From a virus: DNA of 45,207 bases. Under the pieces are notes generated by a model. The model saw only the letters and a list, made by a program, of their open reading frames with translations, was not told where the DNA came from and ran no database searches. How positions within the stretch are numbered: position 1 is the stretch's first letter; each line of letters opens with the position of its first letter. The DNA lies in the IMG/VR virus record IMGVR_UViG_3300044997_000480, positions 1 through 45,207 of that record; one strand, written 5' to 3'. Position numbers and translations under genes: made by a program. Positions 25,860 through 45,207 of the stretch are shown piece after piece.

Positions 25860-28190
25860 ATGGCAGAAAACGTTCAAAGATCATCGGGCATACCAGGTGC
25901 CTTTAAGCTAGATCGGGGCAATGCACCCACACAGGTGGGCATGTACATTGGAGAAGTGCGCCAAGTTTTGGATAGCACACGCAGTGGGCAAGTCAAAGTT
26001 TGGATCGAAGATTTTGCAGGACCAGACAAGGAAAATCCAGATCTTTGGAGACCAGTATCACCTGTGAGTCCATTTTACGGTACGACCAATCCACCAGTGG
26101 AGCAGGAAACTGGTGAGGGTAACTTTACGCTTAACAAGCAGAGCTACGGTATGTGGTTCACGCCTCCTGACATTGGTACACTACTGATATGCTTTTTTGC
26201 CTCAGGAGATTCAAACTATGGATACTATCTTGGTGCCGTAGTTCAGCCAGGTATCAATCATATGTTGCCGGCGATTGGAGCATCGCGCAACTACAAACTG
26301 GATAACTCTGGACAACAACCTTACTTCAACGGAGTGCCGCAACTGCCAGTGGTAGAACTCAATATCAACAATCAGCAGATATCAGAAAATCCGAAGTTTT
26401 ACAATGAGAAAAAACCCGTACACTCAGTAGTGGCTGCTGTGATGTTGCAACAGGGCTTGATCAAAGATCCCATACGTGGGCCTATCAACTCCAATGCTCA
26501 ACGGGAAAGTCCCAGTACAGTGTATGGTATCAGCACTCCGGGCCGCCCTATATATCTTGGAGGTATGAGCGACGAAGATGTATTGAAAAAAGCACAGTCT
26601 GGCGCTCTAAATCCGCAAGACGCCACAGTGATAGCACGTCGTGGTGGTCATAGTTTTGTCATGGACGATGGTGACATATCTGGTAATGATGCATTGGTTA
26701 GAATACGCACAGCCAAAGGTCATCAAATCACTATGAGTGATTCTGGAGACTGTTTTTTCATCATACATAGCAATGGTCAAACATGGCTGGAGTTTGGTAA
26801 CCAAGGCACTGTGGACATCTATAGCACCAACAGCATAAACCTGCGTAGCAATGGCGACATCAATCTCCATGCTGATCGAAGCATAAACATGAATGCTAAA
26901 GGCGTGATTAACATCAAAGGCGAACGTGCGTTGGCCATGGAAGGAGAAACAATCACGTCCAAATCCAACAAATCTATCTTGATGTATAGCAAGGAATATA
27001 TAGGAATCAAAAGCGACGGAACATTGAGCTTGAAATCTAATAAGTCTGGTACCTGGAACGCAGGATCTAACATGGTACTCAGTGCAGGATGTATCAGCCT
27101 CAATGGTGGTGATGCTCCGGATGTGCCCAAGCCTGGCGATATCTCAAAACAAAGTTTACCGGATACCAAGTTTGAACAGAACCGCGGCTGGGTAGTTCAG
27201 AATGGTGCGTTGACTACCATTGTAACTAGAGCCCCTACACACCAGCCTTATCCTTTGGTAGGTCGCGGCATCAACAATCAAACTGAACTGCAAGTATCTA
27301 CAGCACCTATAGCAGTAAATGGGGAAATTGAAGCACGTATTGCTTCTATACAAAATGTAGATTTTTCTCCCATACAGGTCAAAGATTTTGAAGTGCAAGC
27401 TCCAGCAAATGCTGCCGTTGGATCTATACAACCAGATCAAGTCACGGCTATGTTGGCACAGCGGCGAGTGGATGCCAGTCAAAATTCTACTGATCTCAGC
27501 GAAGACGGACTTGGTGAATACAAGCTCACCCCTGCACAGCTTGAAGACGCTGGACTGTTGAAACCGGGTACCGTGGAGTTTTATCTCACTGGCGGCACAG
27601 CTACAGCAACGGATATCCTTACCAGCCCACAGGTCTGGACAGGTCAAAACGGAGTAAACAATGTCACTGCCTTGTTGTCTGACAGGTCTCTGCAAGCGTC
27701 GGTGCAGACGCAGTTGTACAATCAATCGTTGCAACAGTTGAGATCAGCTGGTGTGGTCACTGGTTCTGAAGATCCTGTGAAGTTGGCAGGCCTAGTACAG
27801 GCAGGATCCAAATACGGTGCAGACACTGTAAAAAACTGGATCCAAGGCAAAGTAGGTGATCTGGACAAAGACACAGAAATAGGAAAACTGGTACGTGGCG
27901 GTCAGTATGCAGTACAGCTTGCTAATCAAAAAATCAGCAATGCTCTCAAGGGCTATAGTACCACAGGTATTGGATCTACTTCTACAGTGAATCGCACAGG
28001 TATAGATGCGGCAGTATCTTCGGTGATTGGTAATGCCAAGGTCACTACGCCTAACTACACCAATCCTTTTACTATCTACAGCAATGTTTCAGATGCAGAC
28101 TTGACCTATAGAGGCGATAATGCTATTGTTCTGGCCAATATCAATGCAGAACGACGCAGACGTGGTTTACCGCCCATACAAACGGCTTAA
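25860..28190 (+). CDS. 5: Baseplate spike protein gp5, without lysozyme domain
   Basis: A 776-aa central spike. Residues 20-140 form the OB-fold (GMYIGEVRQV, RSGQVKVWIEDFAGPDKENP, YGMWFTPPDIGTLLICFF, YGYYLGAV). Residues about 285-415 are a beta-helix needle of short repeats (AKGHQITMSDSGD, SINLRSNGDINLHADRSI, KGVINIKGERALAMEG). The part between them (140-255) has no T4-lysozyme sequence, so the enzyme domain that T4 gp5 carries is missing. A C-terminal extension (about 490-776) includes YKLTPAQLEDAGLLKPGTVE, a module I recall from other marine T4-like gp5 proteins. It forms the trimeric tip that pierces the outer membrane. The gp25 gene starts 10 bases after its stop. Confidence 0.9.
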   Translation: MAENVQRSSGIPGAFKLDRGNAPTQVGMYIGEVRQVLDSTRSGQVKVWIEDFAGPDKENPDLWRPVSPVSPFYGTTNPPVEQETGEGNFTLNKQSYGMWFTPPDIGTLLICFFASGDSNYGYYLGAVVQPGINHMLPAIGASRNYKLDNSGQQPYFNGVPQLPVVELNINNQQISENPKFYNEKKPVHSVVAAVMLQQGLIKDPIRGPINSNAQRESPSTVYGISTPGRPIYLGGMSDEDVLKKAQSGALNPQDATVIARRGGHSFVMDDGDISGNDALVRIRTAKGHQITMSDSGDCFFIIHSNGQTWLEFGNQGTVDIYSTNSINLRSNGDINLHADRSINMNAKGVINIKGERALAMEGETITSKSNKSILMYSKEYIGIKSDGTLSLKSNKSGTWNAGSNMVLSAGCISLNGGDAPDVPKPGDISKQSLPDTKFEQNRGWVVQNGALTTIVTRAPTHQPYPLVGRGINNQTELQVSTAPIAVNGEIEARIASIQNVDFSPIQVKDFEVQAPANAAVGSIQPDQVTAMLAQRRVDASQNSTDLSEDGLGEYKLTPAQLEDAGLLKPGTVEFYLTGGTATATDILTSPQVWTGQNGVNNVTALLSDRSLQASVQTQLYNQSLQQLRSAGVVTGSEDPVKLAGLVQAGSKYGADTVKNWIQGKVGDLDKDTEIGKLVRGGQYAVQLANQKISNALKGYSTTGIGSTSTVNRTGIDAAVSSVIGNAKVTTPNYTNPFTIYSNVSDADLTYRGDNAIVLANINAERRRRGLPPIQTA

Positions 28191-28200: not shown

Positions 28201-28575
28201 ATGGCAACGTTTATTGGATTCAACACTATCAATCAGTTTAAAAAGTTTACACTGGTAGACCTCCAGCTGATCAAGCGCGATCTCTTGAACTATTTCAACA
28301 TACGCCAAGGTGAAAAAGTGGGCAGGCCCGACGTAGGCACTACCATGTGGAACTTGGTATTTGAACCGCAGACTGAACAAACTGCTGGATTGATCGTACA
28401 AGAAATGCAACGCATAGTGGGCCAAGATCCCAGGATCTATCTCACTAGAGCCGATGCTTACCCGCAGATCAATGGTGTGTTAGTCGAACTAGAAATACAA
28501 ACTGTGCAAGGACAGACTGCTGAATTCTTGTCTGTATTTTTTGACCAGCAGACTCGCACTGCCAGCTACATCTAA
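28201..28575 (+). CDS. 25: Baseplate wedge subunit (gp25)
   Basis: A 124-aa protein of the gp25/T6SS TssE family. The signature RPDVGTTMWNLVFEPQTEQT (residues 41-60) and a C-terminal LVELEIQTVQGQTAEFLSVFF strand pair are clear. T4 gp25 is 132 aa. It joins wedge and sheath and nucleates the sheath. The initial MATFIGFNTINQFKK is typical of marine T4-like gp25. It lies directly after gp5 and 45 bases before gp6, separated by a stand-alone late-promoter-like motif. Confidence 0.93.
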   Translation: MATFIGFNTINQFKKFTLVDLQLIKRDLLNYFNIRQGEKVGRPDVGTTMWNLVFEPQTEQTAGLIVQEMQRIVGQDPRIYLTRADAYPQINGVLVELEIQTVQGQTAEFLSVFFDQQTRTASYI

Positions 28576-28620: not shown

Positions 28621-31600
28621 ATGGCCAAGACTACTAGACAAACAGCAATATTTGGAGTAGAAGACTGGAAACGGATTTACACAACTTACCGAGAAGCAGA
28701 CTTCCAAAGCTTTGACTTTGAAACTCTACGTAAAAGTTTTGTTGACTACATCCGAATCTATTATCCAGAAAACTTCAATGACTACATTGAATCATCTGAA
28801 TTTGTGGCTCTGCTGGACGTCATGGCCTTTATGGGCCAGGCACTGGCCTTCCGCAACGACTTAAACATTCGTGAAAACTTTCTTGATACAGCAGAGCGTA
28901 GAGATTCTGTAGTACAGTTGGCCAATCTTGTAAGTTACACTCCCAAACGCAATCAAGAAGCACAAGGTTACCTCAAAGTATTCAATGTTTCAACCACAGA
29001 AAATGTCATAGACTATAACGGACAGAATCTCAGTGGTGTTACTGTAAACTGGAACGATGTGACCAATCCCAGCTGGCAAGAGCAGTTCACTGTGATCATC
29101 AACGCGGCACTGGCAGACAGTCAACGATTTGGTAAACCAGCCGCAACAAAAAACATCTTGGGTGTGGAAACACAAGAATATAGCTTGAATCTTGTGCCAG
29201 GGTTCCTGCCGGTAGTACCATTTTCATCCACAGTGGACGGTACTTCTATGACTTTTGAGGCAGTGAGTTCCACATTCCAAGACGAAGATTACGTCTATGA
29301 GCCTGCGCCCCGTCCCAGTGGGGTATTCAACGTGATGTTTCGCAATGATAGACTGGGATTTGGCAGTCCTAATACTGGTTTTTTCTTTTATTTCAAGCAA
29401 GGTGTCTTGCAAAATCAAGACTTCAATCTAGGCGAACGTATTTCCAATCGTGTGGTAGCGATCAACATTGAAGGTATCAACAATGACGACGTTTGGCTTT
29501 ATCAACTCGACGATGTAGGTAATATCCAGTTTGAATGGGTCAAGGTTGATTCTATCTATTCAGCCGCAGTAGAGCAGTTGGCACCTGATGCTAGAAAGTT
29601 TTTCTCGGTAACATCACGAACCAACGATCAAATCAACTTGAATTTCGGTGACGGAGTGTTTACAGAAATACCCGTGGGACAGTTCCGTAGCTATGTGCGA
29701 GCCAGCAACGGTCTGCAATACATCATCAACCCTGAGGAAATGCAGGCCATCCAGATATCCATCGGCTATTTGAGTCGCACTGGTCGATTGGAGAACATAA
29801 CTTTTACCTGTGGTCTAAGCCAACCAGTGAGCAATGCCGCCGCTAGAGAAACCATTTCAGCAATCAAACAACGTGCGCCTGCTCGCTACTACACACAGAA
29901 TCGCATGGTCAACGGTGAAGACTACAGTAACTTGCCATACACTTTGTTTGGCACCATTATCAAAAGCAAGGCAGTGAACCGAAGCAGTATTGGTACCAGT
30001 CGTTATCTTGATTTGGTTGATATCACCGGCAAATATTCCAGCACCAACATTTTTGCCAGCGACGGATTGATCTGGGAAAATACAGCCAGCCCTAGCTTTA
30101 CATTTACATTTGTTGATCAAAACGACATTGCCAATGCTATCATCAACGAAGTAGAGCCTACTTTAAGCAGTCGAGGCATGCTGGAGTTTTATTATCAAAA
30201 CTTTAGTAGACCCAATCTATCCAACCTCAATATTGAATGGCAGCAGAGCACTACTGCTGCCAACGAAACCACAGGTTATTTCAAATTCAAAGCCAGTGGT
30301 GCTCCTGCACCCATTGGACCGCTGACCAACGATAACAAAAAATACATGACGCAAGGATCGCTGATCAAGTTTGTGCCGCCAGCTGGCTACTACTTTGATC
30401 AAAACAACAGACTCAAACTGGGATTGCCATCACAGCCCAATGACAAGTTAGTGCTGTGGGCCACAGTAAGTGTATTGATTCTAGACGGCACTAACTTTGG
30501 TACAGGTAACTTGCCCGACGGTGTTGGTCCTGTTACGCTCAACAACTTCATACCCACAAACGCAGTACCTGTGCAAGTGATCTCAAAGTTTGTGACAGAT
30601 CTACCAAGCACAGTTGAACAGTCAATGACCGAACAAATACAACTGTATAGAAACTTTGGGATAGGCTTTGACAATCTTACCGGTACTTGGTACGTGATTA
30701 CTGCCAATAACCTTAATGCTGCTACCACATTCAGCTTAGCCAACGCACAGAATCAAAGCGGTCAAGGTTTGGATAACTCTTGGCTTGTGGCATTTGAAAC
30801 CGATGGTGTTACTTACACAGTTACCTATCGTTCATTGGAAAGATTCTGGGGCAGTGTGTTGCAGACTCGTTTCTTCTATGACGGTAGCCAGCGTATCTAC
30901 GATCCACGCACAGGATCAGTGATCGACGATTTCATTAACTGTTTGAAAACCAACAACCTTCCTGATGTCAGCTTGCCGCAAAACTCAGATATCATCATGG
31001 ATATCATTGGTCAACCTATCGAAAGCGATGGCTTCGTGGATGACTTCCAGGTACGTATCAGCTTCAAAGACTTTGACTACGACGGGGTAGCAGATGATCC
31101 TGACTACTTTGAAACCATAGTGGCACCTACTGTGAATCCTTCTGCCAAATATGTATTTTTTGAACGTACTGTGGATTTTGATAATCTTGAGCGGTACCTT
31201 CCTTTAGAAGAAGGTCAAGTGATCAGCGAGTACGCAACCAAAGATCAGATTGAACTGGTCAAAGCTGAATATGCTGATGGACAGTATTTCTATGCTACCA
31301 ACGAGTTGGTATTTTACGAGCTTGATGTAGCATTTAATGGCGTGCGAACTATCAATCAAATCACCTATCTTTTGGCCAGAACTGGTCGTCAAGGTCTGGC
31401 ATTTCAGTATCGCCACAATGCGCCACTGAGCCGTAGGATCGATCCAGGATCATCCAATATCATCGACATGTATTTGGTCACACAGGCCTATTATACTGCC
31501 TATCAAAACTATATCAAGGACTCTACCAACACAGTGCCTGAGCCCAGCCCGCCTACCATCGACGAGCTGTCAGCGAGTTACAGCAGTTTGAATCAGTACA

Positions 31601-32028
31601 AGATGATATCAGACAACATGATTTTGAACTCAGTGGTATTCAAACCTTTGTTTGGTATCAAATCTGCACCAGAACTGCGTGCCACACTCAAAGTGATCCG
31701 CAGTAACAACAGTGTGGTCAGTGTGAGCGAAATTAAGAGTCGCATGGTAGCCGCACTCAACGAATATTTTACCATAGATAAATGGGATTTTGGTCTGACT
31801 TTCTATTTCTCAGAGTTAGCAGCCTATCTGCACAAAGAACTAGGGGACATTATTTCCACAGTGGTATTGGTACCACAAAACCCGCTTAAGAGCTTTGGTG
31901 ACCTTTATGAAATACGTAGCCAACCCAATGAAATATTTGTCAATGCAGCCACAGTGACTGACATTAAAGTCATTGACGCTTTGACCAGCAGTGAACTTAG
32001 AACCGCGCTCAATAGTGGTGTTGTATAA
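28621..32028 (+). CDS. 6: Baseplate wedge subunit (gp6)
   Basis: A 1135-aa protein, much longer than T4 gp6 (660 aa). The N-terminus has the strongly conserved block in which YYPENFNDYIESSEFVALLD (about residues 50-69) is followed by AFRNDLNIRENFLDTAERRDS and LVSYTPKRNQEA. The middle has the FFSVTSRTNDQINLNFGDGVF strand of the baseplate J-like fold. The C-terminus (LNSVVFKPLFGIKSAPELRATLKV, about 1000) matches the gp6 dimerisation region. gp6 forms the inner ring that holds the six wedges. The long insertion (about 500-850) is not seen in T4. The giant gene follows two bases after its stop. Confidence 0.92.
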   Translation: MAKTTRQTAIFGVEDWKRIYTTYREADFQSFDFETLRKSFVDYIRIYYPENFNDYIESSEFVALLDVMAFMGQALAFRNDLNIRENFLDTAERRDSVVQLANLVSYTPKRNQEAQGYLKVFNVSTTENVIDYNGQNLSGVTVNWNDVTNPSWQEQFTVIINAALADSQRFGKPAATKNILGVETQEYSLNLVPGFLPVVPFSSTVDGTSMTFEAVSSTFQDEDYVYEPAPRPSGVFNVMFRNDRLGFGSPNTGFFFYFKQGVLQNQDFNLGERISNRVVAINIEGINNDDVWLYQLDDVGNIQFEWVKVDSIYSAAVEQLAPDARKFFSVTSRTNDQINLNFGDGVFTEIPVGQFRSYVRASNGLQYIINPEEMQAIQISIGYLSRTGRLENITFTCGLSQPVSNAAARETISAIKQRAPARYYTQNRMVNGEDYSNLPYTLFGTIIKSKAVNRSSIGTSRYLDLVDITGKYSSTNIFASDGLIWENTASPSFTFTFVDQNDIANAIINEVEPTLSSRGMLEFYYQNFSRPNLSNLNIEWQQSTTAANETTGYFKFKASGAPAPIGPLTNDNKKYMTQGSLIKFVPPAGYYFDQNNRLKLGLPSQPNDKLVLWATVSVLILDGTNFGTGNLPDGVGPVTLNNFIPTNAVPVQVISKFVTDLPSTVEQSMTEQIQLYRNFGIGFDNLTGTWYVITANNLNAATTFSLANAQNQSGQGLDNSWLVAFETDGVTYTVTYRSLERFWGSVLQTRFFYDGSQRIYDPRTGSVIDDFINCLKTNNLPDVSLPQNSDIIMDIIGQPIESDGFVDDFQVRISFKDFDYDGVADDPDYFETIVAPTVNPSAKYVFFERTVDFDNLERYLPLEEGQVISEYATKDQIELVKAEYADGQYFYATNELVFYELDVAFNGVRTINQITYLLARTGRQGLAFQYRHNAPLSRRIDPGSSNIIDMYLVTQAYYTAYQNYIKDSTNTVPEPSPPTIDELSASYSSLNQYKMISDNMILNSVVFKPLFGIKSAPELRATLKVIRSNNSVVSVSEIKSRMVAALNEYFTIDKWDFGLTFYFSELAAYLHKELGDIISTVVLVPQNPLKSFGDLYEIRSQPNEIFVNAATVTDIKVIDALTSSELRTALNSGVV

Positions 32029-32030
32029 AA

Positions 32031-35000
32031 ATGGCAAAAACAAGAATTAGAACAGTAGATTTTCTACCAGAGATTTTCCGTACCCCGACCAATCGGCAGT
32101 TCCTTGGCGCCACTCTGGACCAGCTGGTACAGGATCCTAAACTCAAGCCTACTCAAGGCTACATTGGACGTCGTGTAGGCCCTGGTGTCAATCCCAACGA
32201 CAACTATGTGCTTGAGCCAACCAAGATTAGAACAGATTATCAACTGGAACCGGGTGTAGTATTTCTCGAACCCAATACCAACACAGTTGAAACAGCAGTT
32301 ACATACCCAGGTCTTGTTGACTCTATCAATGTGCAAGGAGGCAATGTATCCCGACAAGATCGTCTGTGGGAGAGCGAATATTACAGTTGGGATCCGTTTG
32401 TAGATCTTGACAAGTTTATCAACTTCAGTCAGTATTACTGGCTGCCAGGGGGTCCAGACTCCGTGGACGTGTTTGCAGATCCTGTGCCATTGACCAATGA
32501 TTTCACAGTGAGCCGCAATGCCACCAACTATGAGTTCAGTGGTGTCCCTGGGCAAAATCCAACCATTACATTGGCCCGACAAGGAACCTACGAGTTCAAC
32601 GTGCAACAAACAGGTCGTAGATTTTGGATACAGGCCGTTCCTGGTGTTTTGGGTACTCTGCCACAGACACCAAATCAAAGCAGTAGAGAAGTGTTGGGGG
32701 TGTTCAACAACGGTGACGACAACGGCACCATTGTTTTCAATGTGCCTGAAAAATCTGCACAAAACTTTTATTACACACTGGCAGATGATGGTCGTGTGAG
32801 CTTTGCCACCGACATCAATTTTGATCAAATCAACAACCAATATGTGTCAGAGTTTTTGGCAGCCTATGGAGGCATTGACAGAGTAACAGATCTTGATGGT
32901 CGCACAGTGATTTTCTTGGGAGACGCAGGTTGGTTTTTCACAGGACTGTACGACAGTCCAGGCCAGGCCTATGACACAGTGCCGTTTGATGAAACAGTTG
33001 AAATCACACTGAACAGCCAGAAGTACAGTGTATGGCGTATTACCTATGTATATGATGATCCAACCAATCCCTACATCAAACTCACCGTGGATCGACCCGT
33101 CAACAATCTTAGCAAACTGTTGATTGAGTACGGCAATGAATACAGCAACATCAGTTTCTACAAAACTGCTTCGGGACTGTTTGAGCGCATTCCACTGATC
33201 ACTGCCAATCTTGACGTGCTGTATTATCAGGATCAAGACAATCCTGCTTTGTTTGGATTGATTAGACTAGTTGATAATCCTAGTTCAGCACCCATTGTGG
33301 TTGAAGACGCCAGCATACCCAGTGTGCGTTTGGTCGATGCCAATATCAATGATACTGTTTTAACTTTTACTACAGCCATTGGAGGAGTTCTGTTGCCAGG
33401 TATGGTACTCAGTGGCGGCGGAGTAACTGACGGCACTTATCTTGTGAGTTCTCTAGGCGATAACACATGGTTGTTGAATCAAACAGCCACAGGCCAACCC
33501 AACACAGCGCAGATCGTGGACATCATTGGAGCAAGATATTATACCAGCTCCAACGGTGTGGTGTTTTCAAATGGATTAAAAGTACAGTTTCAAGGTCCCA
33601 CTGTGCCCAGCAGTTATTCTGGCAATACCTATTACGTTGAGGGAGTAGGTTCATCTATACAACTGTTGCCAGTAGAAAACTACATCACACCTGAGTTATA
33701 CACAAGATCTACCACGGTACCCTATGATTCAACACCATATGATGCCACACCTTTTGACGACACACTCAATGCTCCGTTGGATCAAGACTATCTTACCATT
33801 AACCGAGCCAGTCGCGATCAAAATGCCTGGACCCGCAGTAATCGTTGGTTCCATGTAGACATCATCAATGCCACAGCACAATACAATGGTACTGTGCCAT
33901 TTTTAGACAATCGTTACAGAGCCAAGAGACCAATCATTGAGTTTGTAGCCAATCTCAAACTGTTTAACTACGGTACCGAAGCCATTGCTCCTGTAAACAT
34001 CATTGATTTTAGAGAAACAGATGCGTTAAGCAATATCAATGGTACCATTGGTTACAGTGTGGACGGATTTGCATTTAACAATGGCATCCGTGTAATCTTT
34101 GCAGCCGACATCGACCCCGAAGTTCGCAACAAGGTCTATAAAGTTCAGTTTATTTTGCCCTCTGGGTCAGGCGTGCCAATCATAGATTTACAGCCCGTCG
34201 ATCTCAACTCTCCAGACCAGCTCTACGGACAAAACACAATCATTACCAGCGGTGTTTCACAGCAAGGCAAGTGTTTTTGGTACAATGGTGTGACTTGGGT
34301 ACCAGCACAACAAAAAACCAATGTAAACCAAGCACCACTGTTTGACGTATTTGATGGCATTGGGTCTAGCTTTGGTGATAGATTGATCTATCCAGGCACA
34401 TCATTTACCGGTACCAAACTGTTCAGCTATGCTCTAGGTAAAGGAGTCACTGATTCAGTGATTGGCCAGCCGCTGAAGTATCTCACCATCAACAACGTGG
34501 GAGACATTGTGTTTGACAACAATCTCTACATAGATCAGTTTACCTATGTAGAAGACACAGTGACAGAGACCAAGAATATAGGCACTGGTTTTGTTAGACA
34601 ATACTACAATAGACTTGAGTTCGACAAACTGATTGGATGGACCACCGCCTATACCACGGTAACCTCTCGTCAGAGTTTCTCATTTACCTATACCGGAGAT
34701 CCACTGGTCATTGATGTACCAGTAAAACTAACCAGCACCGCGGTGCCTGTGAAAGTTTTTGTCAACGCTGTGTTTTTAACCACAGACAACTACACCTACG
34801 AGATCAAGCCCAACAACACCACAGTGATTACTTTTATCAATGCACCAGCATTAAACTCCACAGTGGAAGTCAGCGTGGTCAGTGATGTGGCCAGCAAACA
34901 AGGTTTCTACAGCGTGCCGTTGAACTTGGAAAACAATCCACTGAACAATCAAGTAACTGAAGTAACATTGGGCACAATGAGAAACTACTATGGCAGTATC

Positions 35001-38000
35001 TGTCAGAATCTTCGCACTTTTCAGGGCACTATCAACGGACAAAACAACACCAGAGACCTTGGTCAGCTGGTACCATATGGTGATACCATCATACAAAACA
35101 GTGCTCCAGTGACTTTGACTGCTCTGTTTGCCAACAACACACAATATGACTTCTTCCGAGCGTTGGATTTTTCTTCTAGAGAATATGAAAAATACAAAAA
35201 TCTCGTGATGGATGCAGTGATCAAAAACGATTTTCAAAACATGACTGCGGCCCAGATCCTGGATGATTGTATGACCATAATCAATCTTGGAAAAAACGAA
35301 CTGTCGCCTTTCTATTTTACCGATACAGTACCATCGGGTGAAACTTTTGAAGAGACCAACTATATTGTTACACCTATCACAGGCAATACCTTTGATACTC
35401 TGTATAGCTATAACTTCACTGAAGCAAACTATCGTGCAATATTGGTATATCTCAACGGTACACAACTGCTTGGCAACGGCATTGACTACACAGTAGCTAC
35501 CGATGGACCACGTGTGATTATCAATGTGTCATTGCAGATTGGCGATACAGTGACTTTGAGAGAATATACTACCACAGTAGGAAACTTTGTGCCTTCTACA
35601 CCCAGCAAACTGGGTCTGTATCCTGCCTATGTGCCTGAGATATTTGTAGATGATACCTATGTAGATCCAACTTTGGTAATCAGAGGGCACGATGGATCTA
35701 TCACTGTGTCCTATCACGATATCCGCGACCAAGTGCTGTTGGAGTTTGAACATAGGATATACAACAACCTCAAGTTGGTAGGTAATCCTGTGCCTTTAGT
35801 CTATAAGGATGTGGCGCCGGGAGAGTTCCGTACAACAGATTACACACAAGTAGAAATAACTCAAATCATGAGTGAGAGTTTCTTGGCCTGGGTAGGAGCC
35901 AACAAGCTGAACTATCGTGAACAAGAGTACAATGGATCTAACCAGTTTACCTGGAACTACAGCAGTTCGTTAAGCAAACTGGATGGCAAGTCATTGCTGG
36001 GCGCCTGGCGCGGAATCTACAACTACTTCTATGACACTGATGCACCTAACACCAGACCGTGGGAAATGTTGGGCATCTCGCAAAAACCCGCCTGGTGGGA
36101 AGAACAATATGGCCCAGCACCATACACAGCAGGTAACTTAGTGTTGTGGGAGGACCTTGAAGCTGGACGTGTGATGGATCCAACAGGTTCTTATATCGTA
36201 GAAAAATATGTACGTCCAGGTCTTACTCGCGTGATACCCAGCGATTCAGAAGGCGCTTTGTTGAGTCCTTTTGAAGTGATGGTAGGTGATTATACTCCTA
36301 ATAGTTTTAGAAAAAGCTGGACTGTGGGCGACGATGGTCCAGTAGAAGCTTCGTGGCAGAAAAGCAGTGCTTGGCCATTTGCAGTGATGCGTTTGCTGGC
36401 GCTGACAAAGCCTGCACAGTTCTTTACTTACTTTGAAGACCGTGATGTGTATCGTTTTGACCCAGAGATTGACGAGTTTGTATACAACGGCAGATCCAGA
36501 TCCAAGCAGAGTGTTGAACTTGAAATCTATGGCCAAGGCATAGCCAAGCATAGCTATGTAAACTTTATTGTAGATTATAACCGTCTACAAGGTCGCGACA
36601 GTAGTGCAGAAATCACAGAAGCCATGTATTGGATTGATGTGAGACTGTGCTATCGCATGGCATCTTTCACAGACAAGCAGTATATCAAGATCTTAACTGA
36701 AAAATCCAGCCCTAACAGTCTCAATACCAGTTTGTTGTTGCCCGACGAAAGCTATCAGATCCTGCTGTATAAAAATCCTACCATAGCCAGCTTGGTATGG
36801 AGTTCGGTTGTTATACAGAAAACAGAACTGGGATATGCAGTATACGGCTATTCGACAACTAAACCATATTTTGAAATACTGGCCAGTGTGCCCAATGGCA
36901 ACTATCGCACCATCACAGTGGCGGACAAAACAGTGCAAGTGCTCAATGACTACAGCAATGAAGTGGTCAAGGTACCTTATGGCTACGAGTTTGTGGGCAC
37001 CAATAGTGTTGCAGACTTCTTGCTGAGCTATGGTGCTTATCTGTCAAGACAAGGCATGACCTTTGAAGATCAGGAACGAGGCCGCATCTTGAACTGGAGT
37101 CAGATGGTTCAAGAGTTTGTGTATTGGAGCCAGCAAGGCTGGGCCCCTGGCAGCTTGATCAACATCAACCCCGCTGCCAATACACTTAATGTTGTCAAGC
37201 CAGGCCTGGTCGCTGAACCATTGAGCGTAGTTGCCCCAGAAGACGTGCTGTTGAATCAAAACAAAACGCCATTGCAGTCCATTGACTATGTGGTAGAAAG
37301 ATATGAAAATGATCTTACCTTGCGTGCGATCAACAACAACACCTTCAGTTATCTCTCTGCTAAGTTTACAGAGTTTGAACATCTCATAGTGATTGACAAT
37401 ACCAGTGTGTTCAATGATTTGATCTATGACCCAACCACTGGTGCTCGTCAAAGCCGATTGTTGTTCACAGGATATACCACATTTGAATGGAACGGCAGTC
37501 TAGATGCACAAGGCTTTATACTCAACCAAGACAACGTGCAAGAATGGTTGCCAAACAGAAGCTATACCAAAGGACAGATCGTCAAGTACAAAGATGCCTA
37601 TTGGTCTGCTGTAAAAATCATTCCGCCCACTGAAAAGTTTGATTTTGAGTTCTGGCTCAAGAGCGACTATGCACAGATACAAAAAGGCTTGTTGCCCAAT
37701 GCGGCCACTGCTGCCGAACAGATTCGTGGTTTTTACAATGCCAACCAAGCCAACCTCGAAAGAGATGCTGACTTGTTTGCATTTGGGTTGATTGGTTTCC
37801 GACCACGCAGATACATGCAGAATTTGAACTTGGACGACATCAGCCAGGTCAACCTCTACAGCCAGTTCCTTGGCATCAAAGGAACCACACAGGCCACAGA
37901 TATCTTTACCAAGGCCAATCTTGGCAAGGAAGTGGCACAGTACGAAATCTTTGAAAACTGGGCGATCCAGCGATCAATCTATGGTGCCAACGCCAATCGC

Positions 38001-41000
38001 AGTTACTATGAGCTGAGACTCAACGAAGCTAAGTTGCTGGGTAATCCTTCCACCATTGAAGTCATTGAGCCTCAACAGTTCAGTGAAGCAGATCAAACTG
38101 TATTGGTCAGTGGCATTTGGAAGCAGAGCTATCCAATCACCAATCCTGATATTTTACCTACTACGTTTTTAAATGCCACGGACATACAGTTACCCAGTGC
38201 TGGTTATGTTAACTGGGACGATGCTGACATCAAGTTGTTCAACTTTACCGATCTTGATGCTATAATCAATGATATTGAAAACATTTATGTGGGTACCAGT
38301 GTATGGGTGGCCAAAGACAATGCCTACGATTGGAACATATACAGAAACAATATTGTGGTGCCTTTGCTCACACAAGTACGAGACAATCTCAACGGAACAT
38401 GTACTCTACAGTTCAATGGACAGCACGGACTCAGTGTCAATCAAAAGATAGTAGTCAAGTATTTTAGTAAAGGTATAGATGGCGCTTACGCAGTCATATC
38501 AACTCCTAGTTTGACCACAGCAACAGTGTCCTTGACCTTGGGCGGTGCTGTTACACAGGTCACAGGCACAGGTGTTTGCTTTGTGCTTGAAACCATGCGT
38601 GTGCGACAAGCTGCAGATGTTTCTAACTTGATTTACGCCAACAGTTTGTTACCAGGCAATCATGCTTGGGTAGACGATGATGGTACCGGACATTGGGTAG
38701 TTTATGAAAAAATCAATCCATTTACTACCACACCAGGCATTACTCCAGCAGATTCAGTGATCAGTTCAAGATTTGGTGCCGCCATATCTCAAGGATTTGG
38801 TGGCCTAGCCGCTCTGATAGGTGCTCCTGGGTACAACGGCGATGTTGGCGCAGTGTACACATTCACCAAAGGCGGTACAGTAGACTATGTTGAAACTGGT
38901 GTGCTGACCATGGGTGCAGCTAACTTTGTTAACTACGGAGCCGCGGTTACTACCGGAGGTGACCAATGGGGAGCCATCGGTGCTGGAAATTCATGGGCCA
39001 AACAAGGTTATGCGGTCACAGTTAATCGTAATACTAACTCTGGCGATTTCATACAAGCTCAGTTGTTGACTGAAATACCGTATAGACTGTATCAAGCCAC
39101 CGGCAACGGCGCCACTTCCACTTATACTCCAACCGGTGTGTCATTGGTCAACCCTAATGCAGTGAGCGTGGTCATCAGTGATGTTGTCAAAGTCAGAGGC
39201 ACAGATTGGAACATTGTGGGATCTACGGTAGTGTTTACCGCTCCTCCAGCTGTAGGCTCTCAGATCAATATTTTTAACTATGACGAATACGGTTACAGTG
39301 TATCAATCAGCAATGATGAACGCTGGCTCTATGTTGGTGCTCCGGCAGGCAATAGAGTGTATGCCTACAATCAAGTTACTGTGCAGTCACAGTCCAAGAA
39401 CTTTGTTGGTGATGGCGTGACCACAGATTTCTATGTAGCCGATGTGATCATTGTGGATGATGACTCGACCTCTGGCGGCATTGGTGCCCAGCAGATTGGT
39501 GTCACTGTAAATAATCTGCCAAAAACAGCAGGTGTAGACTACGATTATATAAACGGAACAGTGGTATTCAATGCACCTCGTAACAGAGATGACGAGATCC
39601 GAGTAATACGTTTGCAAAGCAAAACATTCTTTGAAACCACTCCTAGAAGCATATTCCCAATAGAAGACCTGTACACAGTAACAGATATCTATAGTTTTAG
39701 TGTGTATGTCAACAGTGTGTTGCAAAGACCCAACATGGATTACAGTTTCAATCCAGGAACCAAAACTGTAACCTTTGTATTGGCAGGACAGACGGGAACC
39801 ATACTAATCATCTCAAGCACACACTATCAATATGTTGATTGCATAGACGGTTCCGCCTTGGGCAGTGTTGCTGGTGCTAGATTTGGACAATCAGTGTCTG
39901 CAACATCAGACGGTCGACAGGTAGTCATTGGAGCACCCAATGACACTGCCAACAGCAAACTGCTGGCTGGTAAGGTATACTTGATTGATCGCAGTGTTGA
40001 AAGATTCACAGTCACAGATACTGCTCAAACAGAGTATTCTACATTGAGAACGTTCAACGGAGTTCCCAGCGTTAAGGTCAATGCTACCTATTTGATTCTG
40101 GACGGATTCAACAATAACGGACAGTTTGTTCAAGTTGATTCTAACACAGTTGACATACAGATAGCTCTCAATGTTGGTGATATCATTGAAATAGATACCA
40201 ATACCTTTGCTTTGATGGAAGTGGCTAATTCAAACACACCCACAGCAGGTGCAAACTTTGGATCCGTGGTTCAACAATGTCCAACTAACTGTAGTTTGTA
40301 CATTGGTCAACCCAACGACAGTAGAGTTGTGCTCGAAGGTGGTAGCGTTGAGAGATTTATAAATCAAGCAAGACTCTATGGTACTATCACTAGCATTAAT
40401 CAAAATCCCACACTCACACCTGGTACTACATTGCGTATACAGCAGGTTGATGTTACAGTGTCTACTCCAGGATCATGGAACAGTTCCGCGAGTTGGACGG
40501 CTGGAGAATTTGTGATCAGTGGTTCTTCTATCTATCAGGCCATTAGAAATGTGCCAGTATCGACCAGCATTAATGATACATCCTATTGGAAACCATCCAG
40601 CTGGGTAGAATTGTTTGCCAACGATATCAACGTTGCGGCAGAACCAAACGCTATTGGGTTGGTTGAAGTTCCCAACGTTCGGGCCATTGCTGCCAACGGT
40701 TATCTCACACTGACTATTAGAAACTCAGATGCGGCCATCGCATATACACAACTCACTGTGTTGCCAGGACTGGGCAATGCCTACACTGCTCTTGGCTTCA
40801 CACCCCATGTATATGCACAAACTATTGAAGCTCCTAACCAACTGGCTTATGCACACTTTGGCGCATCATTGAGTGTGAGTGATGACAGTCTGACCTTGGT
40901 CGTTGGCTCGCCACAGGGCACCGCAGCCAAACCAACCACATTTGATAATGGAACCACCTTCTTTGACAGCAAATCCACCAACTTAGTTGATCTCTTGCCA

Positions 41001-44000
41001 GAGAGCGGAGTGGCCTATACATACGATCTATTGGCAGCAGCCAACGCCAGTGTAAGCAATCCAAGCAAGTTTGTGTTTGGGCAACAGATTTTCGATCAAG
41101 ATGTCAACTCTCTTGACAACTTTGGCACAGCAGTAAGCTACTCTCGTGGTATCTTGCTGATTGGCAGTCCTCAGGACGATCTTGGTGACTCTGTGGGTGA
41201 TTATGGCAGGATATCACAGTTCAACAATCCAAATCGCTTGGCAGCATGGGACGTGATTTACAGACAGAAACCTATTGTGGATGTCAAGTTAATCAACTCA
41301 GTATACATGTACGACAAGCTAGAAAACAAGGTCACACAGTATTTTGACTTTATTGATCCACTGCAAGGCAAAATACTAGGCATAGCCAGACAAAATATTG
41401 ATTATCTTGGTGCAGTAGATCCTGCGGCATACAACGTTGGCACAATCAACAACTACGGCGACACATGGAATGAATCGCACCTTGGCGAAATCTGGTGGGA
41501 TCTCTCTACAATAAGATTCATCGACTATCATCAGTCAACCATTGCCTATGAAAGTCAGCGTTGGAGCCAGGTGTTTCCGGGCAGTAGAGCAGATGTGTAT
41601 CAATGGATTGAATCGCCAACGCCACCAGCTGAATATACTGGCCCAGGCGTACCATTCAGTACCACAAGTTTTGTAGTTGTTAGCAAACTTAACGACGATG
41701 GCTTGTTTACGTCAAGGTATTTTTTCTGGGTGCGTGGCATACCAGAAATCGTCACCAGACTGGGCAAGACTCTCAGCACACAAGCCATTGCTCAGTACGT
41801 AGAAAACCCACGCAGTTCAGGATTGCCTTATGTGGCTTTCTTGGGTCCTAGCACCACTGCTATCTACAATGGCAGACCTTATATTGGTGCCCAAGATACC
41901 ATCCTACACATTGAATTTGACAAAATAGCCAATGATGACAATGTGCATGCTGAATATGATCTCATAGCATCAAACAATCCTAACAGCTTCTTGGTGCCCG
42001 GCCTGTTCCGTAAAATGCTGGATAGCTTCTGCGGCGAAGACACATTGGGTAACAAAGTACCTGATCCTACACTGAGCCCAGCCGATCGCTATGGTGTGCA
42101 GTTCCGTCCTCGTCAGAGTTTCTTTGTAGATCGATTTCTGGCCCTGCGCAACTATCTACAACGTGCCAACGCAATCATGGCTCAGTTCTCTGTAAGCGAT
42201 AGTCGACCATTTAACCTGCTCAACAGTTCTGAACCTGAACCAACATCAGCATCCGGTGCTTGGAACAAGCGTGTGCTAGACTATCAAGAGTTGACATTTC
42301 AAGACCTCAGCGTAGTTCCGGTGGGTTACAAATATCTTGTGGCCACAGACTTAACTAACGACGGACTGTGGACTATCTACACTGTGGTACTCAGCCTTGA
42401 CGGTATACGCAAAGAACTGCTGTTGAGCCGTGTACAAAACTATGATACCAGATTGTATTGGGAATACATTGATTGGATCAAACCTGGATACAATGCCAGT
42501 GTGCGTCCTGTGGCCGAAGTCACAACATTCAGTGAACTCAGCAGGCTCACTGTGCCCGAGGGTGCCAGTGCCAAGGTATCAAAAAACAGTTTTGGCTTGT
42601 TTGAGATTTATCAATATCTCAACGGTGTTTGGGAACGTGTGTTTTTAGAAAATGGTACCGTGCGTATCAAAGAAGAAATCTGGGATTATGCAGTTGGACG
42701 ATATGGTTTTGACGTTGAAACCTTTGACAGTCAACGTTTTGATCAATATCCTGCTATCGAAACACGTCAAATCATACGAGCTATCAATGAAGAAATTTTA
42801 GTAGGTGAGTGGGCTATTTTCCGCAACAAGCTCTTGTTGTTGGTGTTTGATTTTATATTAACTGAGCAACTGGCGCCTGATTGGCTGTTTAAAACATCCT
42901 TGATTGATGTCAATCACAAAATCCGTGATCTGTTACCCTATCAAATCTTTCGCACAGACAATCAAGATTTTGTGCTGGATTATATCAAGGAAGTCAAACC
43001 TTATCACGTTCAAATCAAAGAATTCAATCTTCGTTACGACGGCATTGATACCTATGATGGAAACATCACAGACTTTGATTGTCCAGCATATTTTGACGCA
43101 GCGTTACAAGAGTTTGAAGCTCCTGCATTGGATGATTCTGTACCACCAAAATATTCTAACAGCGAGCCAAGTACTGATCCAATCTGGCAGGAGATACCTT
43201 GGCAACAGTGGTATGATAACTACAAACTACTGCTGACCGGAGCAACGATCATTGAGCAGGGCACAGGTTATACTGTTCCACCAGTGGTTACAGTCACAGG
43301 AGACGCTGAACGAGAAGCTGTTATCGTAGCTAGAATCAGCACTGCTGGGCAAGTAGTGGAACTCATTGTGCTGGACCCAGGTTCAGGATATACTACCACA
43401 CCTATCATTGAAATATCTGGTGGCAATGGCTTGGGTGCAAAGGCTGTGACGGTGCTGGAAAACCAGTTGGTAAGAACATTCACTACCACTCTCAAGTACG
43501 ACCGATTCAACTATACCAGTCAAGTCTTGGATTGGGAGCCCGACACCAAATACACCGAAGGTCAGTTGGTACGATTTCGCAATCAGGTCTACAGCGTTAA
43601 TCTAGTAGATGACAGTGTAGAGTTGGACAGCGGTCCGATATTTGATCCCACAGAATATACCTTGGTAGATGAATCTACGCTGGATGCCGCAGATCGAGTG
43701 ATTGGTCTGTATTCGCCAACGCCCAATCAGCCTGGTCGAGAACTGCAACAGGTAATGACAGGCATTGACTATCCTGGCGTACAAGTAATGGGTCCCAACT
43801 TCAATCAAAACACTGGTTTTGATGTAGGCAACTTTGATGTGAATCCATACGATAACATCGACTATGGCCCTGAAGGTAGACCAACTTACTCAGAAAGCAT
43901 TTTGGACGCTATCTATGAAAGTTCATTTACAGATACTTATCTGGGCACTAGAAGCACTGACATCAATGTGGACGGTGGTGCATTCATCGACACTTATTCC

Positions 44001-45207
44001 AGCCATGCTCCTGAAGAACTGATACCTGGATCTACATTTGATACTCTAGACTTCCGTGTGTATACTCGTCCAGGTGCAGATTGGCAAGGTAACGGCCATG
44101 GGTTTGATATCAAAGAAGTCAATCTATTATATACAGCCACTGATGATACAGTGAGTTTTGAAGCAGTGATGGCATATGCTGTGGCAGTACGTGCAATAAA
44201 CGTGACCAACCGTATTTCGCTAATCCCTGATGTAGATTACACTGTGGATTGGCCAAGTCGCACATTGACCATCTTGCCCGGTGCTGCAACCAGCTTTAAC
44301 GATATCGTACAAGTTGCGGTGTATGGCATAGGCGGTGGCAGTCAGTTGTTCAAAGAAAGTTATTCAGGTGACGTGGTTGGTAACTCTTTGGTTATTCCAG
44401 TTATCACTGCGGTACCTTGGACCACGTTCACTGTGTATGCCCAGGGTAGCTATGTACGCTACAATGGCAATGTGTATCGTGTGAACAGAACCAGCAACAG
44501 TGGTTCTAGTTTTGATTTCTTGTTGTATACCATAATAGATGCCAATAGTGTGTTGGAACAGTTGATAATTTTGGTCAACGGTCAAATCATCAACAACTAC
44601 ACTTCTACATCAACAGATGGCTACAAAACTAGAATCACGTTTGGTGATACTTACGATTCTACTGACTGGGTAGTTGTCACTGCTCTAGGCCCAACACAAC
44701 CACAAAAGATCTGGAGCTTCCCAGTCACACAATATTTTGAGTATGATGGTAGTACCACAGACTATACTCTAGTCAACAGTTTGCAAGGCACCAATCCCAT
44801 TGACATGATCGTTGAACGCAAAGGTCAGCGACTACGTCCTGCAGAAAGTATTGAATATTTTGGTAACGGCAGTTCGGTTGGACCTTTCTATTTGCCAACA
44901 CGCGGCGGAACACCACAAGGATTGATATCTGACAATGATGTAGTTGTTTACATTGATGGTGTATTGTACAACCTAGCTGTTGATTACACTGTCAGTGCCT
45001 GGGATGGCAGTAGTGATCGCTATGTAGAATTTGCTACTGCACCTGCATCAGGAGCAGTGATCAAAATAGCAGTGACAACCGACGCAGATTATCTAGTCAA
45101 CAACGATCAACTCATATTGAGAGTAGGTGCAGCCACAGGGTCTGTGTTTGCTGTAACTACCTGGAACGATACATCACAACAAGGACTTCTGACCCAAGTG
45201 TTCCAAG
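32031..45207 (+). CDS. Giant baseplate-associated structural protein (gp7 position), 3' end outside window
   Basis: An open frame of more than 4,390 codons from ATG at 32031 to the window edge, starting MAKTRIRTVDFLPEIFRT. It follows gp6 by two bases, where T4 has gp7 (1032 aa), but is over four times longer. Visible parts: an N-terminal domain with FLPEIFRTPTNRQFLGATLD; a DQDYLTINRASRDQNAWTRS segment near residue 583 typical of giant phage structural proteins; a seven-repeat FG-GAP propeller at about 2246-3080; dispersed beta-sandwich units (VNGV..DYTV..F..AP..G); and a GSGYTTTP-type beta repeat near 3780. Likely a peripheral baseplate/receptor-contact protein. I spot-checked the frame in several places and at the end and found no stop, but did not translate every codon. 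Confidence 0.8.
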   Translation, partial: MAKTRIRTVDFLPEIFRTPTNRQFLGATLDQLVQDPKLKPTQGYIGRRVGPGVNPNDNYVLEPTKIRTDYQLEPGVVFLEPNTNTVETAVTYPGLVDSINVQGGNVSRQDRLWESEYYSWDPFVDLDKFINFSQYYWLPGGPDSVDVFADPVPLTNDFTVSRNATNYEFSGVPGQNPTITLARQGTYEFNVQQTGRRFWIQAVPGVLGTLPQTPNQSSREVLGVFNNGDDNGTIVFNVPEKSAQNFYYTLADDGRVSFATDINFDQINNQYVSEFLAAYGGIDRVTDLDGRTVIFLGDAGWFFTGLYDSPGQAYDTVPFDETVEITLNSQKYSVWRITYVYDDPTNPYIKLTVDRPVNNLSKLLIEYGNEYSNISFYKTASGLFERIPLITANLDVLYYQDQDNPALFGLIRLVDNPSSAPIVVEDASIPSVRLVDANINDTVLTFTTAIGGVLLPGMVLSGGGVTDGTYLVSSLGDNTWLLNQTATGQPNTAQIVDIIGARYYTSSNGVVFSNGLKVQFQGPTVPSSYSGNTYYVEGVGSSIQLLPVENYITPELYTRSTTVPYDSTPYDATPFDDTLNAPLDQDYLTINRASRDQNAWTRSNRWFHVDIINATAQYNGTVPFLDNRYRAKRPIIEFVANLKLFNYGTEAIAPVNIIDFRETDALSNINGTIGYSVDGFAFNNGIRVIFAADIDPEVRNKVYKVQFILPSGSGVPIIDLQPVDLNSPDQLYGQNTIITSGVSQQGKCFWYNGVTWVPAQQKTNVNQAPLFDVFDGIGSSFGDRLIYPGTSFTGTKLFSYALGKGVTDSVIGQPLKYLTINNVGDIVFDNNLYIDQFTYVEDTVTETKNIGTGFVRQYYNRLEFDKLIGWTTAYTTVTSRQSFSFTYTGDPLVIDVPVKLTSTAVPVKVFVNAVFLTTDNYTYEIKPNNTTVITFINAPALNSTVEVSVVSDVASKQGFYSVPLNLENNPLNNQVTEVTLGTMRNYYGSICQNLRTFQGTINGQNNTRDLGQLVPYGDTIIQNSAPVTLTALFANNTQYDFFRALDFSSREYEKYKNLVMDAVIKNDFQNMTAAQILDDCMTIINLGKNELSPFYFTDTVPSGETFEETNYIVTPITGNTFDTLYSYNFTEANYRAILVYLNGTQLLGNGIDYTVATDGPRVIINVSLQIGDTVTLREYTTTVGNFVPSTPSKLGLYPAYVPEIFVDDTYVDPTLVIRGHDGSITVSYHDIRDQVLLEFEHRIYNNLKLVGNPVPLVYKDVAPGEFRTTDYTQVEITQIMSESFLAWVGANKLNYREQEYNGSNQFTWNYSSSLSKLDGKSLLGAWRGIYNYFYDTDAPNTRPWEMLGISQKPAWWEEQYGPAPYTAGNLVLWEDLEAGRVMDPTGSYIVEKYVRPGLTRVIPSDSEGALLSPFEVMVGDYTPNSFRKSWTVGDDGPVEASWQKSSAWPFAVMRLLALTKPAQFFTYFEDRDVYRFDPEIDEFVYNGRSRSKQSVELEIYGQGIAKHSYVNFIVDYNRLQGRDSSAEITEAMYWIDVRLCYRMASFTDKQYIKILTEKSSPNSLNTSLLLPDESYQILLYKNPTIASLVWSSVVIQKTELGYAVYGYSTTKPYFEILASVPNGNYRTITVADKTVQVLNDYSNEVVKVPYGYEFVGTNSVADFLLSYGAYLSRQGMTFEDQERGRILNWSQMVQEFVYWSQQGWAPGSLININPAANTLNVVKPGLVAEPLSVVAPEDVLLNQNKTPLQSIDYVVERYENDLTLRAINNNTFSYLSAKFTEFEHLIVIDNTSVFNDLIYDPTTGARQSRLLFTGYTTFEWNGSLDAQGFILNQDNVQEWLPNRSYTKGQIVKYKDAYWSAVKIIPPTEKFDFEFWLKSDYAQIQKGLLPNAATAAEQIRGFYNANQANLERDADLFAFGLIGFRPRRYMQNLNLDDISQVNLYSQFLGIKGTTQATDIFTKANLGKEVAQYEIFENWAIQRSIYGANANRSYYELRLNEAKLLGNPSTIEVIEPQQFSEADQTVLVSGIWKQSYPITNPDILPTTFLNATDIQLPSAGYVNWDDADIKLFNFTDLDAIINDIENIYVGTSVWVAKDNAYDWNIYRNNIVVPLLTQVRDNLNGTCTLQFNGQHGLSVNQKIVVKYFSKGIDGAYAVISTPSLTTATVSLTLGGAVTQVTGTGVCFVLETMRVRQAADVSNLIYANSLLPGNHAWVDDDGTGHWVVYEKINPFTTTPGITPADSVISSRFGAAISQGFGGLAALIGAPGYNGDVGAVYTFTKGGTVDYVETGVLTMGAANFVNYGAAVTTGGDQWGAIGAGNSWAKQGYAVTVNRNTNSGDFIQAQLLTEIPYRLYQATGNGATSTYTPTGVSLVNPNAVSVVISDVVKVRGTDWNIVGSTVVFTAPPAVGSQINIFNYDEYGYSVSISNDERWLYVGAPAGNRVYAYNQVTVQSQSKNFVGDGVTTDFYVADVIIVDDDSTSGGIGAQQIGVTVNNLPKTAGVDYDYINGTVVFNAPRNRDDEIRVIRLQSKTFFETTPRSIFPIEDLYTVTDIYSFSVYVNSVLQRPNMDYSFNPGTKTVTFVLAGQTGTILIISSTHYQYVDCIDGSALGSVAGARFGQSVSATSDGRQVVIGAPNDTANSKLLAGKVYLIDRSVERFTVTDTAQTEYSTLRTFNGVPSVKVNATYLILDGFNNNGQFVQVDSNTVDIQIALNVGDIIEIDTNTFALMEVANSNTPTAGANFGSVVQQCPTNCSLYIGQPNDSRVVLEGGSVERFINQARLYGTITSINQNPTLTPGTTLRIQQVDVTVSTPGSWNSSASWTAGEFVISGSSIYQAIRNVPVSTSINDTSYWKPSSWVELFANDINVAAEPNAIGLVEVPNVRAIAANGYLTLTIRNSDAAIAYTQLTVLPGLGNAYTALGFTPHVYAQTIEAPNQLAYAHFGASLSVSDDSLTLVVGSPQGTAAKPTTFDNGTTFFDSKSTNLVDLLPESGVAYTYDLLAAANASVSNPSKFVFGQQIFDQDVNSLDNFGTAVSYSRGILLIGSPQDDLGDSVGDYGRISQFNNPNRLAAWDVIYRQKPIVDVKLINSVYMYDKLENKVTQYFDFIDPLQGKILGIARQNIDYLGAVDPAAYNVGTINNYGDTWNESHLGEIWWDLSTIRFIDYHQSTIAYESQRWSQVFPGSRADVYQWIESPTPPAEYTGPGVPFSTTSFVVVSKLNDDGLFTSRYFFWVRGIPEIVTRLGKTLSTQAIAQYVENPRSSGLPYVAFLGPSTTAIYNGRPYIGAQDTILHIEFDKIANDDNVHAEYDLIASNNPNSFLVPGLFRKMLDSFCGEDTLGNKVPDPTLSPADRYGVQFRPRQSFFVDRFLALRNYLQRANAIMAQFSVSDSRPFNLLNSSEPEPTSASGAWNKRVLDYQELTFQDLSVVPVGYKYLVATDLTNDGLWTIYTVVLSLDGIRKELLLSRVQNYDTRLYWEYIDWIKPGYNASVRPVAEVTTFSELSRLTVPEGASAKVSKNSFGLFEIYQYLNGVWERVFLENGTVRIKEEIWDYAVGRYGFDVETFDSQRFDQYPAIETRQIIRAINEEILVGEWAIFRNKLLLLVFDFILTEQLAPDWLFKTSLIDVNHKIRDLLPYQIFRTDNQDFVLDYIKEVKPYHVQIKEFNLRYDGIDTYDGNITDFDCPAYFDAALQEFEAPALDDSVPPKYSNSEPSTDPIWQEIPWQQWYDNYKLLLTGATIIEQGTGYTVPPVVTVTGDAEREAVIVARISTAGQVVELIVLDPGSGYTTTPIIEISGGNGLGAKAVTVLENQLVRTFTTTLKYDRFNYTSQVLDWEPDTKYTEGQLVRFRNQVYSVNLVDDSVELDSGPIFDPTEYTLVDESTLDAADRVIGLYSPTPNQPGRELQQVMTGIDYPGVQVMGPNFNQNTGFDVGNFDVNPYDNIDYGPEGRPTYSESILDAIYESSFTDTYLGTRSTDINVDGGAFIDTYSSHAPEELIPGSTFDTLDFRVYTRPGADWQGNGHGFDIKEVNLLYTATDDTVSFEAVMAYAVAVRAINVTNRISLIPDVDYTVDWPSRTLTILPGAATSFNDIVQVAVYGIGGGSQLFKESYSGDVVGNSLVIPVITAVPWTTFTVYAQGSYVRYNGNVYRVNRTSNSGSSFDFLLYTIIDANSVLEQLIILVNGQIINNYTSTSTDGYKTRITFGDTYDSTDWVVVTALGPTQPQKIWSFPVTQYFEYDGSTTDYTLVNSLQGTNPIDMIVERKGQRLRPAESIEYFGNGSSVGPFYLPTRGGTPQGLISDNDVVVYIDGVLYNLAVDYTVSAWDGSSDRYVEFATAPASGAVIKIAVTTDADYLVNNDQLILRVGAATGSVFAVTTWNDTSQQGLLTQVFQ
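38766..41250 (+). repeat. Seven FG-GAP-type repeats inside the giant protein
   Basis: Seven units of about 30-40 residues, each with an F/YG-x-[AS] start and a GAP/GSP/GQP end, at nucleotides about 38766 (RFGAAISQ...IGAPGYNG), 38931 (NYGAAVTT...IGAGNSW), 39285 (EYGYSVSI...VGAPAGN), 39879 (RFGQSVSA...IGAPNDT), 40254 (NFGSVVQQ...IGQPNDS), 40845 (HFGASLSV...VGSPQGT) and 41112 (NFGTAVSY...IGSPQDD). This matches integrin-alpha-like propeller blades. Insertions of up to about 150 residues lie between blades. Confidence 0.72.

Follow-up and report, generated by a model that had tools for sequence, protein, structure and literature searches.

Contact between myophages and their hosts is usually placed in the fibres and spikes that are attached to the baseplate. 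In the jumbo phages RaK2, 121Q, CBB, GAP32, PA5oct, SCTP-2 and Atu_ph07, a giant protein of family phrog_10938 is encoded after gp6. The CBB homolog (CBB_236, 3340 amino acids) adjoins the wedge protein CBB_237 and yielded 21 peptides by mass spectrometry of CBB virions (PMC5259590), and the annotation of the PA5oct homolog records its detection by electrospray ionization tandem mass spectrometry (ESI-MS/MS), indicating that the family is a virion component. CBB also encodes the Kelch propeller proteins CBB_550, CBB_552 and CBB_554, described as six-bladed, and CBB_552 was found in virions (PMC5259590). Here we describe a phrog_10938 protein with a predicted seven-bladed β-propeller of the integrin-α type, encoded at the right end of the IMG/VR virus record IMGVR_UViG_3300044997_000480. 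The whole 45,207-base record was analysed (hereafter the window), and the giant open reading frame (ORF) runs off its right end. The repeats, the ring, its blade number, the positions of its insertions and the membership of a virion-protein family were all derived by computation.

An initial reading of the window made from its letters (hereafter the sequence-only reading) had proposed that seven repeats follow one another in a protein of more than 4,390 amino acids and form an integrin-α-type propeller, and had suggested searches with FG-GAP family profiles and structure prediction as checks. Seven FG...GAP units were indeed found in order between residues 2248 and 3047 of the giant protein, with FG-type motifs at residues 2248, 2302, 2420, 2618, 2743, 2943 and 3031 and GAP-type motifs at residues 2264, 2317, 2436, 2634, 2759, 2959 and 3045. 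The whole giant protein matched Pfam FG-GAP_2 (PF14312) at E 2.7e-15, which passed the cut-off; the family also matched all 29 aligned relatives (29/29). Because the older FG-GAP family (PF01839) had no match in the window genome, PF14312 is the correct family. Blades 3, 4, 6 and 7 each matched FG-GAP_2 when tested alone; blades 1, 2 and 5 were too degenerate for Pfam to detect singly. With profiles built from the 29 relatives, every blade matched other blades, the weakest being blade 2 (1.4e-5 against blade 1 in one direction and 1.6e-4 in the other). Control stretches between the blades were mostly near zero, and the two that reached 19% and 34% probability lay under most of the blade-blade values.

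Within the 29-relative alignment, FG was kept at each of the seven sites by almost every relative, and most of them read G-[AS]-P or similar at the GAP site. The third letter of blade 2 was mostly S or P, and the second and third letters of blade 4 were more variable. Unit 5 had been singled out from the start as degenerate, and it is as described (CPTNC, GQP). Its CPTNC lies in the A-B loop (window 40278-40292), and both cysteines were present in at least 90% of relatives; they could possibly form a disulfide in the virion protein.

AlphaFold2 (AF2) was run on a 923-residue segment with the 29-sequence alignment, giving a predicted local distance difference test score (pLDDT) of 85.5 and a predicted template modelling score (pTM) of 0.86. 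Foldseek searches with this model returned integrin α chains among the best matches, mixed with other propeller proteins. Following re-alignment with VIA-align, all 50 listed entries were integrins (Z 37-41), the best spanning 374 residues with a root-mean-square deviation (rmsd) of 3.1. Model residues 29-876 cover the integrin propeller from its residue 1 to its end, and the order assigned by DSSP has four strands per blade, with FG immediately preceding strand A and GAP immediately following strand B. Because the model aligns over the entire integrin propeller, the segment is almost certainly to be read as a closed, seven-bladed ring of the integrin-α fold; closure was taken from the alignments to whole integrin propellers and not measured on coordinates. 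The ring extends over about 38715-41258, compared with the interval first proposed, 38766-41250. Sequence searches of the PDB with the whole giant protein or with the ring profile found nothing significant, and the integrins were reached by fold comparison only. A cyanophage A4 tail chain that appeared among the Foldseek matches (9k09_U, rank 15) was rejected at a TM-score below 0.2; no informative paper on it was found.

The count of seven blades is not an artefact of how the insertions were read, because a compact version of the ring is also seven-bladed. In a sister group (sequences L050, L059-L067 and L073-L087) the ring occupies 549 residues, with the same flanks, seven FG-GAP units and none of the large inserts. 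The compact model (pLDDT 75.7, pTM 0.79) aligned to integrin heads over 375 residues (VIA-align Z 37.5, rmsd 4.0; Foldseek E 9e-16). The sequence-only reading had named two outcomes that would speak against it; the segment did not turn out to consist of unrelated β-sandwiches, and the number of blades remained seven once the insertions had been resolved.

Relatives of the ring came from IMG/VR contigs only; when 50,697 phage records were searched by tblastn, neither the ring segment nor the compact ring had a match. BLAST comparison of the giant proteins showed conservation as far as residue ~2100 and from residue ~3071 onward, leaving a slot between; the core shared with jumbo phages comprises the N-terminal ~2000 amino acids and the region past the slot. 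The length of the slot ranges from ~110-170 amino acids in RaK2 and Vibrio 2.275 through ~300 in PA5oct and 400 in SCTP-2 to ~970 with the ring here and ~1500 (up to 1530) in Atu_ph07 and Phosso, where it holds 13 GxGY-type repeats in each; the CBB homolog, too, is filled differently at this site. In the Salicola phage SCTP-2 the slot (residues ~2075-2360) weakly resembles a laminin-G/ConA-like lectin over nearly the full profile length (E 0.018, below the cut-off). The giant proteins of RaK2, PA5oct, SCTP-2, Vibrio 2.275 and Atu_ph07 gave no FG-GAP match, and every FG-GAP_2 match in the ring-bearing genomes searched fell within the giant ORF. In an unrooted tree, built by a quick method from the core sequence that precedes the slot, a 100% branch separated ring-bearing from ringless sequences, with the long rings as one group and the compact rings as another. 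The simplest reading of this tree together with the slot comparison is a single acquisition of the ring, the alternative being its loss from the ringless lineages, which the data would also allow. The long and compact subclades share ~40% identity, and the ring was never broken in the ORFs examined.

In the long ring, insertions occur at four places. Those at the 2/3 and 3/4 blade junctions agree with the initial expectation of interblade insertions carrying other domains; those of blades 4 and 5 instead lie inside the blades, between strands C and D. The 2/3 insert and the two 3/4 modules are clearly homologous to one another by hhalign, and the blade 4 module is probably homologous to them. 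The giant protein has further modules of this kind at other places, for example near residues 4297-4352. The blade 5 insert is unrelated to the other modules and contains a stretch (WTAGEFVI...YW) that by eye resembles CBM5/12; Pfam detected three CBM_5_12 stretches in the giant protein, the best at residues 4130-4157. According to strand order, the 2/3 and 3/4 inserts are on one face of the ring and the blade 4 and blade 5 inserts are on the opposite face. The face bearing the 2/3 and 3/4 inserts corresponds to the ligand-binding face of integrins.

The right end of the window is a baseplate gene cluster in which the giant ORF directly follows a gp6-like wedge gene, and the full-length ORF in close relatives encodes ~4855 amino acids. 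The protein belongs to phrog_10938 by homology of its core and by its place after the gp6-like gene, in synteny with PA5oct, Atu_ph07, RaK2 and CBB. The proposal that a giant baseplate-cluster protein houses the ring is supported. We infer both the presence of the window's own giant protein in the virion and its location within the particle. The sequence-only reading had also assigned it to the place of gp7. This label refers to a place in the gene order (the ORF comes immediately after the gp6-like gene, and the contig ends before the following gene); homology to T4 gp7 was not detectable, with an hhalign probability below 1% for both halves of the giant protein and no match to a PDB profile. 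Very distant homology to T4 gp7 would remain compatible with these comparisons.

How might such a ring serve the phage? We propose that it would form a lollipop-like module in a loop of the giant virion protein whose gene follows the gp6-like gene. It would have been gained once, by the ancestor of the metagenomic clade, at a place where related phages have other modules or a short linker, and in the window's subclade it would subsequently have been decorated by β-sandwich modules like those scattered across the giant protein. On the particle the ring would be exposed, projecting from the periphery of the baseplate, and would act as an adhesion platform, a conserved ring whose variable modules, once the fibres are attached, make contact close to the cell wall with glycans or proteins of the host surface. 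Taken as a whole, this account of structure and adhesion platform is our best explanation, and we lean slightly towards it; for the ring being a baseplate-borne adhesion module in its own right, the receptor-contact or adhesive role that the sequence-only reading had suggested, we consider the case evenly balanced. More tentatively, and with doubt outweighing confidence, the baseplate could carry integrin-like adhesion heads in a giant wedge-associated protein, with exchangeable modules (one of them at the αI loop) and receptor contact independent of the tail fibres, the slot being an exchange site for binding domains (a ring here, a lectin-like domain in SCTP-2).

Several observations weigh against adhesion. 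No binding site, ligand or metal site was identified in the ring, and canonical Ca2+ motifs (DxDxDG loops in the A-B turns) were absent from the ring segment; such loops are typical of integrin blades 4-7 and are not required for FG-GAP_2. Inserts stand on both faces, so that no single ligand face stands out, and an analysis of conservation by loop face likewise revealed no distinct conserved ligand face in the ring. Median identity to the window protein was 46% for the blades, 54-55% for the core and 26% for the inserts; the blades thus change almost as slowly as the structural core, whereas receptor-binding domains typically evolve fast. A slowly changing ring whose inserts diverge more quickly is as compatible with a scaffold that presents variable parts as with an adhesin, and the pattern lends adhesion weak support, because buried strands are always conserved.

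The same near-core rate of blade conservation would also fit a ring that works within the particle as a platform for docking or structure, binding other virion proteins such as fibre anchors or neighbouring wedges and making no contact with the host. The flanks of the slot are conserved across jumbo phages, wedge proteins have other baseplate proteins packed around them, many intracellular propellers bind proteins, and β-propeller platforms are known in phage nozzles, for example that of SU10 (PMC9509320). However, the slot of relatives holds other content or nearly nothing, which argues against a universal role in assembly, and the inserts differ in number and length. We regard docking as a serious possibility that falls short of probable. 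The varied content of the slot, and the absence of the ring from characterised relatives, could alternatively mean that the ring is a near-neutral passenger, captured once and sitting in a loop that tolerates it, where it hardly affects fitness; this seems improbable, since all seven blades are kept in both subclades despite their divergence and no broken ring was seen in the ORFs examined. Finally, an origin of the signal in unrelated β-sandwiches with chance FG and GAP letters could appeal to the sandwich-like appearance of several inserted modules and to the three blades invisible to Pfam alone, but two independent models align to whole integrin propellers and the motifs are conserved in 29 relatives; this explanation is already contradicted, and hardly any weight is left to it.

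The occurrence of a complete integrin-type ring within a giant baseplate-cluster protein, at a site whose content differs from one phage lineage to another, suggests that binding modules can be built into the baseplate itself. The ring also provides a specific case of an integrin-like fold in bacterial viruses, with decorated and undecorated versions for comparison, and the domain is small enough for direct expression and testing.

Table 1. Features of the ring, its insertions and the surrounding baseplate genes (window positions). The gp53 and gp25 labels combine PHROG wedge annotation with gene position.
Feature	Position	Strand	Basis
Small baseplate wedge subunit (position fits gp53)	22478..22780	+	phrog_7145 E 4.2e-22
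Baseplate hub / tail lysozyme-like protein	25860..28190	+	phrog_13211 E 4.4e-33
Small baseplate wedge protein (position fits gp25)	28201..28575	+	phrog_43 E 3.4e-9
gp6-like baseplate wedge protein, directly upstream of giant ORF	28621..32028	+	phrog_10646 E 6.8e-276, phrog_219 E 1e-21
Giant virion-protein ORF	32031..45206	+	at least 4392 amino acids, open at contig end; phrog_10938 E 1.1e-285
Conserved stretch leading into ring (AWVDDDGTGHWVVYEKI)	38661..38711	+	W, D, D, G, T, G, H and W identical across 29 relatives; model strands 11-15, 22-27
Predicted seven-bladed integrin-α-type β-propeller, residues 2229-3076	38715..41258	+	AF2; VIA-align Z 41.1, 374 aligned, rmsd 3.1
N-terminal strand region aligned from integrin residue 1 onward (putative closing strand)	38715..38741	+	almost all integrin alignments begin at model residue 29
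Blade 1 (FG...GAP)	38772..38906	+	motifs, profiles, AF2 model
Blade 2 (YG...GAG, most divergent)	38934..39068	+	motifs, profiles, AF2 model
β-sandwich insert between blades 2 and 3	39078..39272	+	in 8/29 relatives
Blade 3 (YG...GAP)	39288..39407	+	FG-GAP_2 E 7.9e-4 alone
Two β-sandwich modules between blades 3 and 4	39399..39842	+	homologous to each other and to 2/3 insert, hhalign 96-98% probability
Blade 4 (FG...GAP), including C-D insert ~39999-40196	39882..40226	+	FG-GAP_2 E 1e-6 alone
Blade 5 (FG...CPTNC...GQP), including C-D insert ~40365-40805	40257..40826	+	profiles, AF2 model
Blade 6 (FG...GSP), long B-C loop (TTFDNGTTFFDSKST)	40857..41090	+	FG-GAP_2 E 0.0039 alone
Blade 7 (FG...GSP)	41121..41264	+	FG-GAP_2 E 2.9e-6 alone

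Two further observations concern the window outside the ring. The giant protein contains a second variable stretch (window 33228-33515, residues ~400-495) that is 62-92% identical in three close relatives and mostly 8-27% identical in others. A radical SAM domain protein (window 16681-17670, minus strand; phrog_21308 E 1.4e-18) is encoded next to a gene for an SbcC-like nuclease, in the region that separates the portal and baseplate genes.

The fold, the FG-GAP_2 family, propellers of jumbo virions (the CBB Kelch proteins) and stand-alone FG-GAP proteins of phages were already known. A literature search, conducted mostly without subscription papers, found no paper on an FG-GAP domain in a phage baseplate and no earlier description of an integrin-type ring inside a giant baseplate-cluster protein. 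The phrog_10938 giants of RaK2, 121Q, CBB, GAP32, PA5oct, Atu_ph07 and SCTP-2 share the place and the core of the window protein, and those examined have no FG-GAP ring. The CBB Kelch proteins are β-propellers of a RaK2-like jumbo phage, but they belong to the Kelch family and are separate proteins. FG-GAP_2 repeats or a matching predicted fold occur in Atu_ph07 gp320 ('hemagglutinin'), in Phosso ORFs of 394, 3162 and 3692 amino acids and in the S-TIM5 virion protein H6WG31; these are also separate proteins, not part of a giant baseplate-cluster protein.

Two of these phages deserve description in their own right. In the Sinorhizobium phage Phosso (PV764938.1), the ORFs at 48338-57826 (minus strand, 3162 amino acids) and 57900-68978 (minus strand, 3692 amino acids) are adjacent, annotated as hypothetical and largely composed of FG-GAP_2, with 6 significant stretches in the former and 19 in the latter, which also has Laminin_G; the pair also contains glycine-rich domains and could possibly represent multi-ring adhesins or fibres. 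In the Agrobacterium phage Atu_ph07 (NC_042013.1, 243018-244199, minus strand), the stand-alone FG-GAP_2 'hemagglutinin' has 393 amino acids and about seven motifs by eye, and adjoins genes annotated as tail sheath.

The closest structural counterpart is the integrin α head (αMβ2 9t3y, αV, α5 and αIIb), which likewise has seven blades with FG ahead of strand A and GAP behind strand B, and whose N-terminal region is aligned from integrin residue 1 (Z 37-41 over ~370 residues). The phage ring shares only 15-21% identity with integrins, lacks their canonical Ca2+ loops and is embedded in a phage structural protein; it is without thigh or calf domains or a membrane anchor and has jumbo-phage structural sequence on both sides (no search for a β-subunit partner was made). 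We do not claim it as a member of the integrin receptor family. In integrins αM, αL and αX the αI domain sits between blades 2 and 3, in the same loop as the phage 2/3 insert. However, αI is a von Willebrand A domain, whereas the phage insert is a small β-sandwich; because this insert is found in only 8 of the 29 relatives and is not an αI domain, the parallel in placement is convergent.

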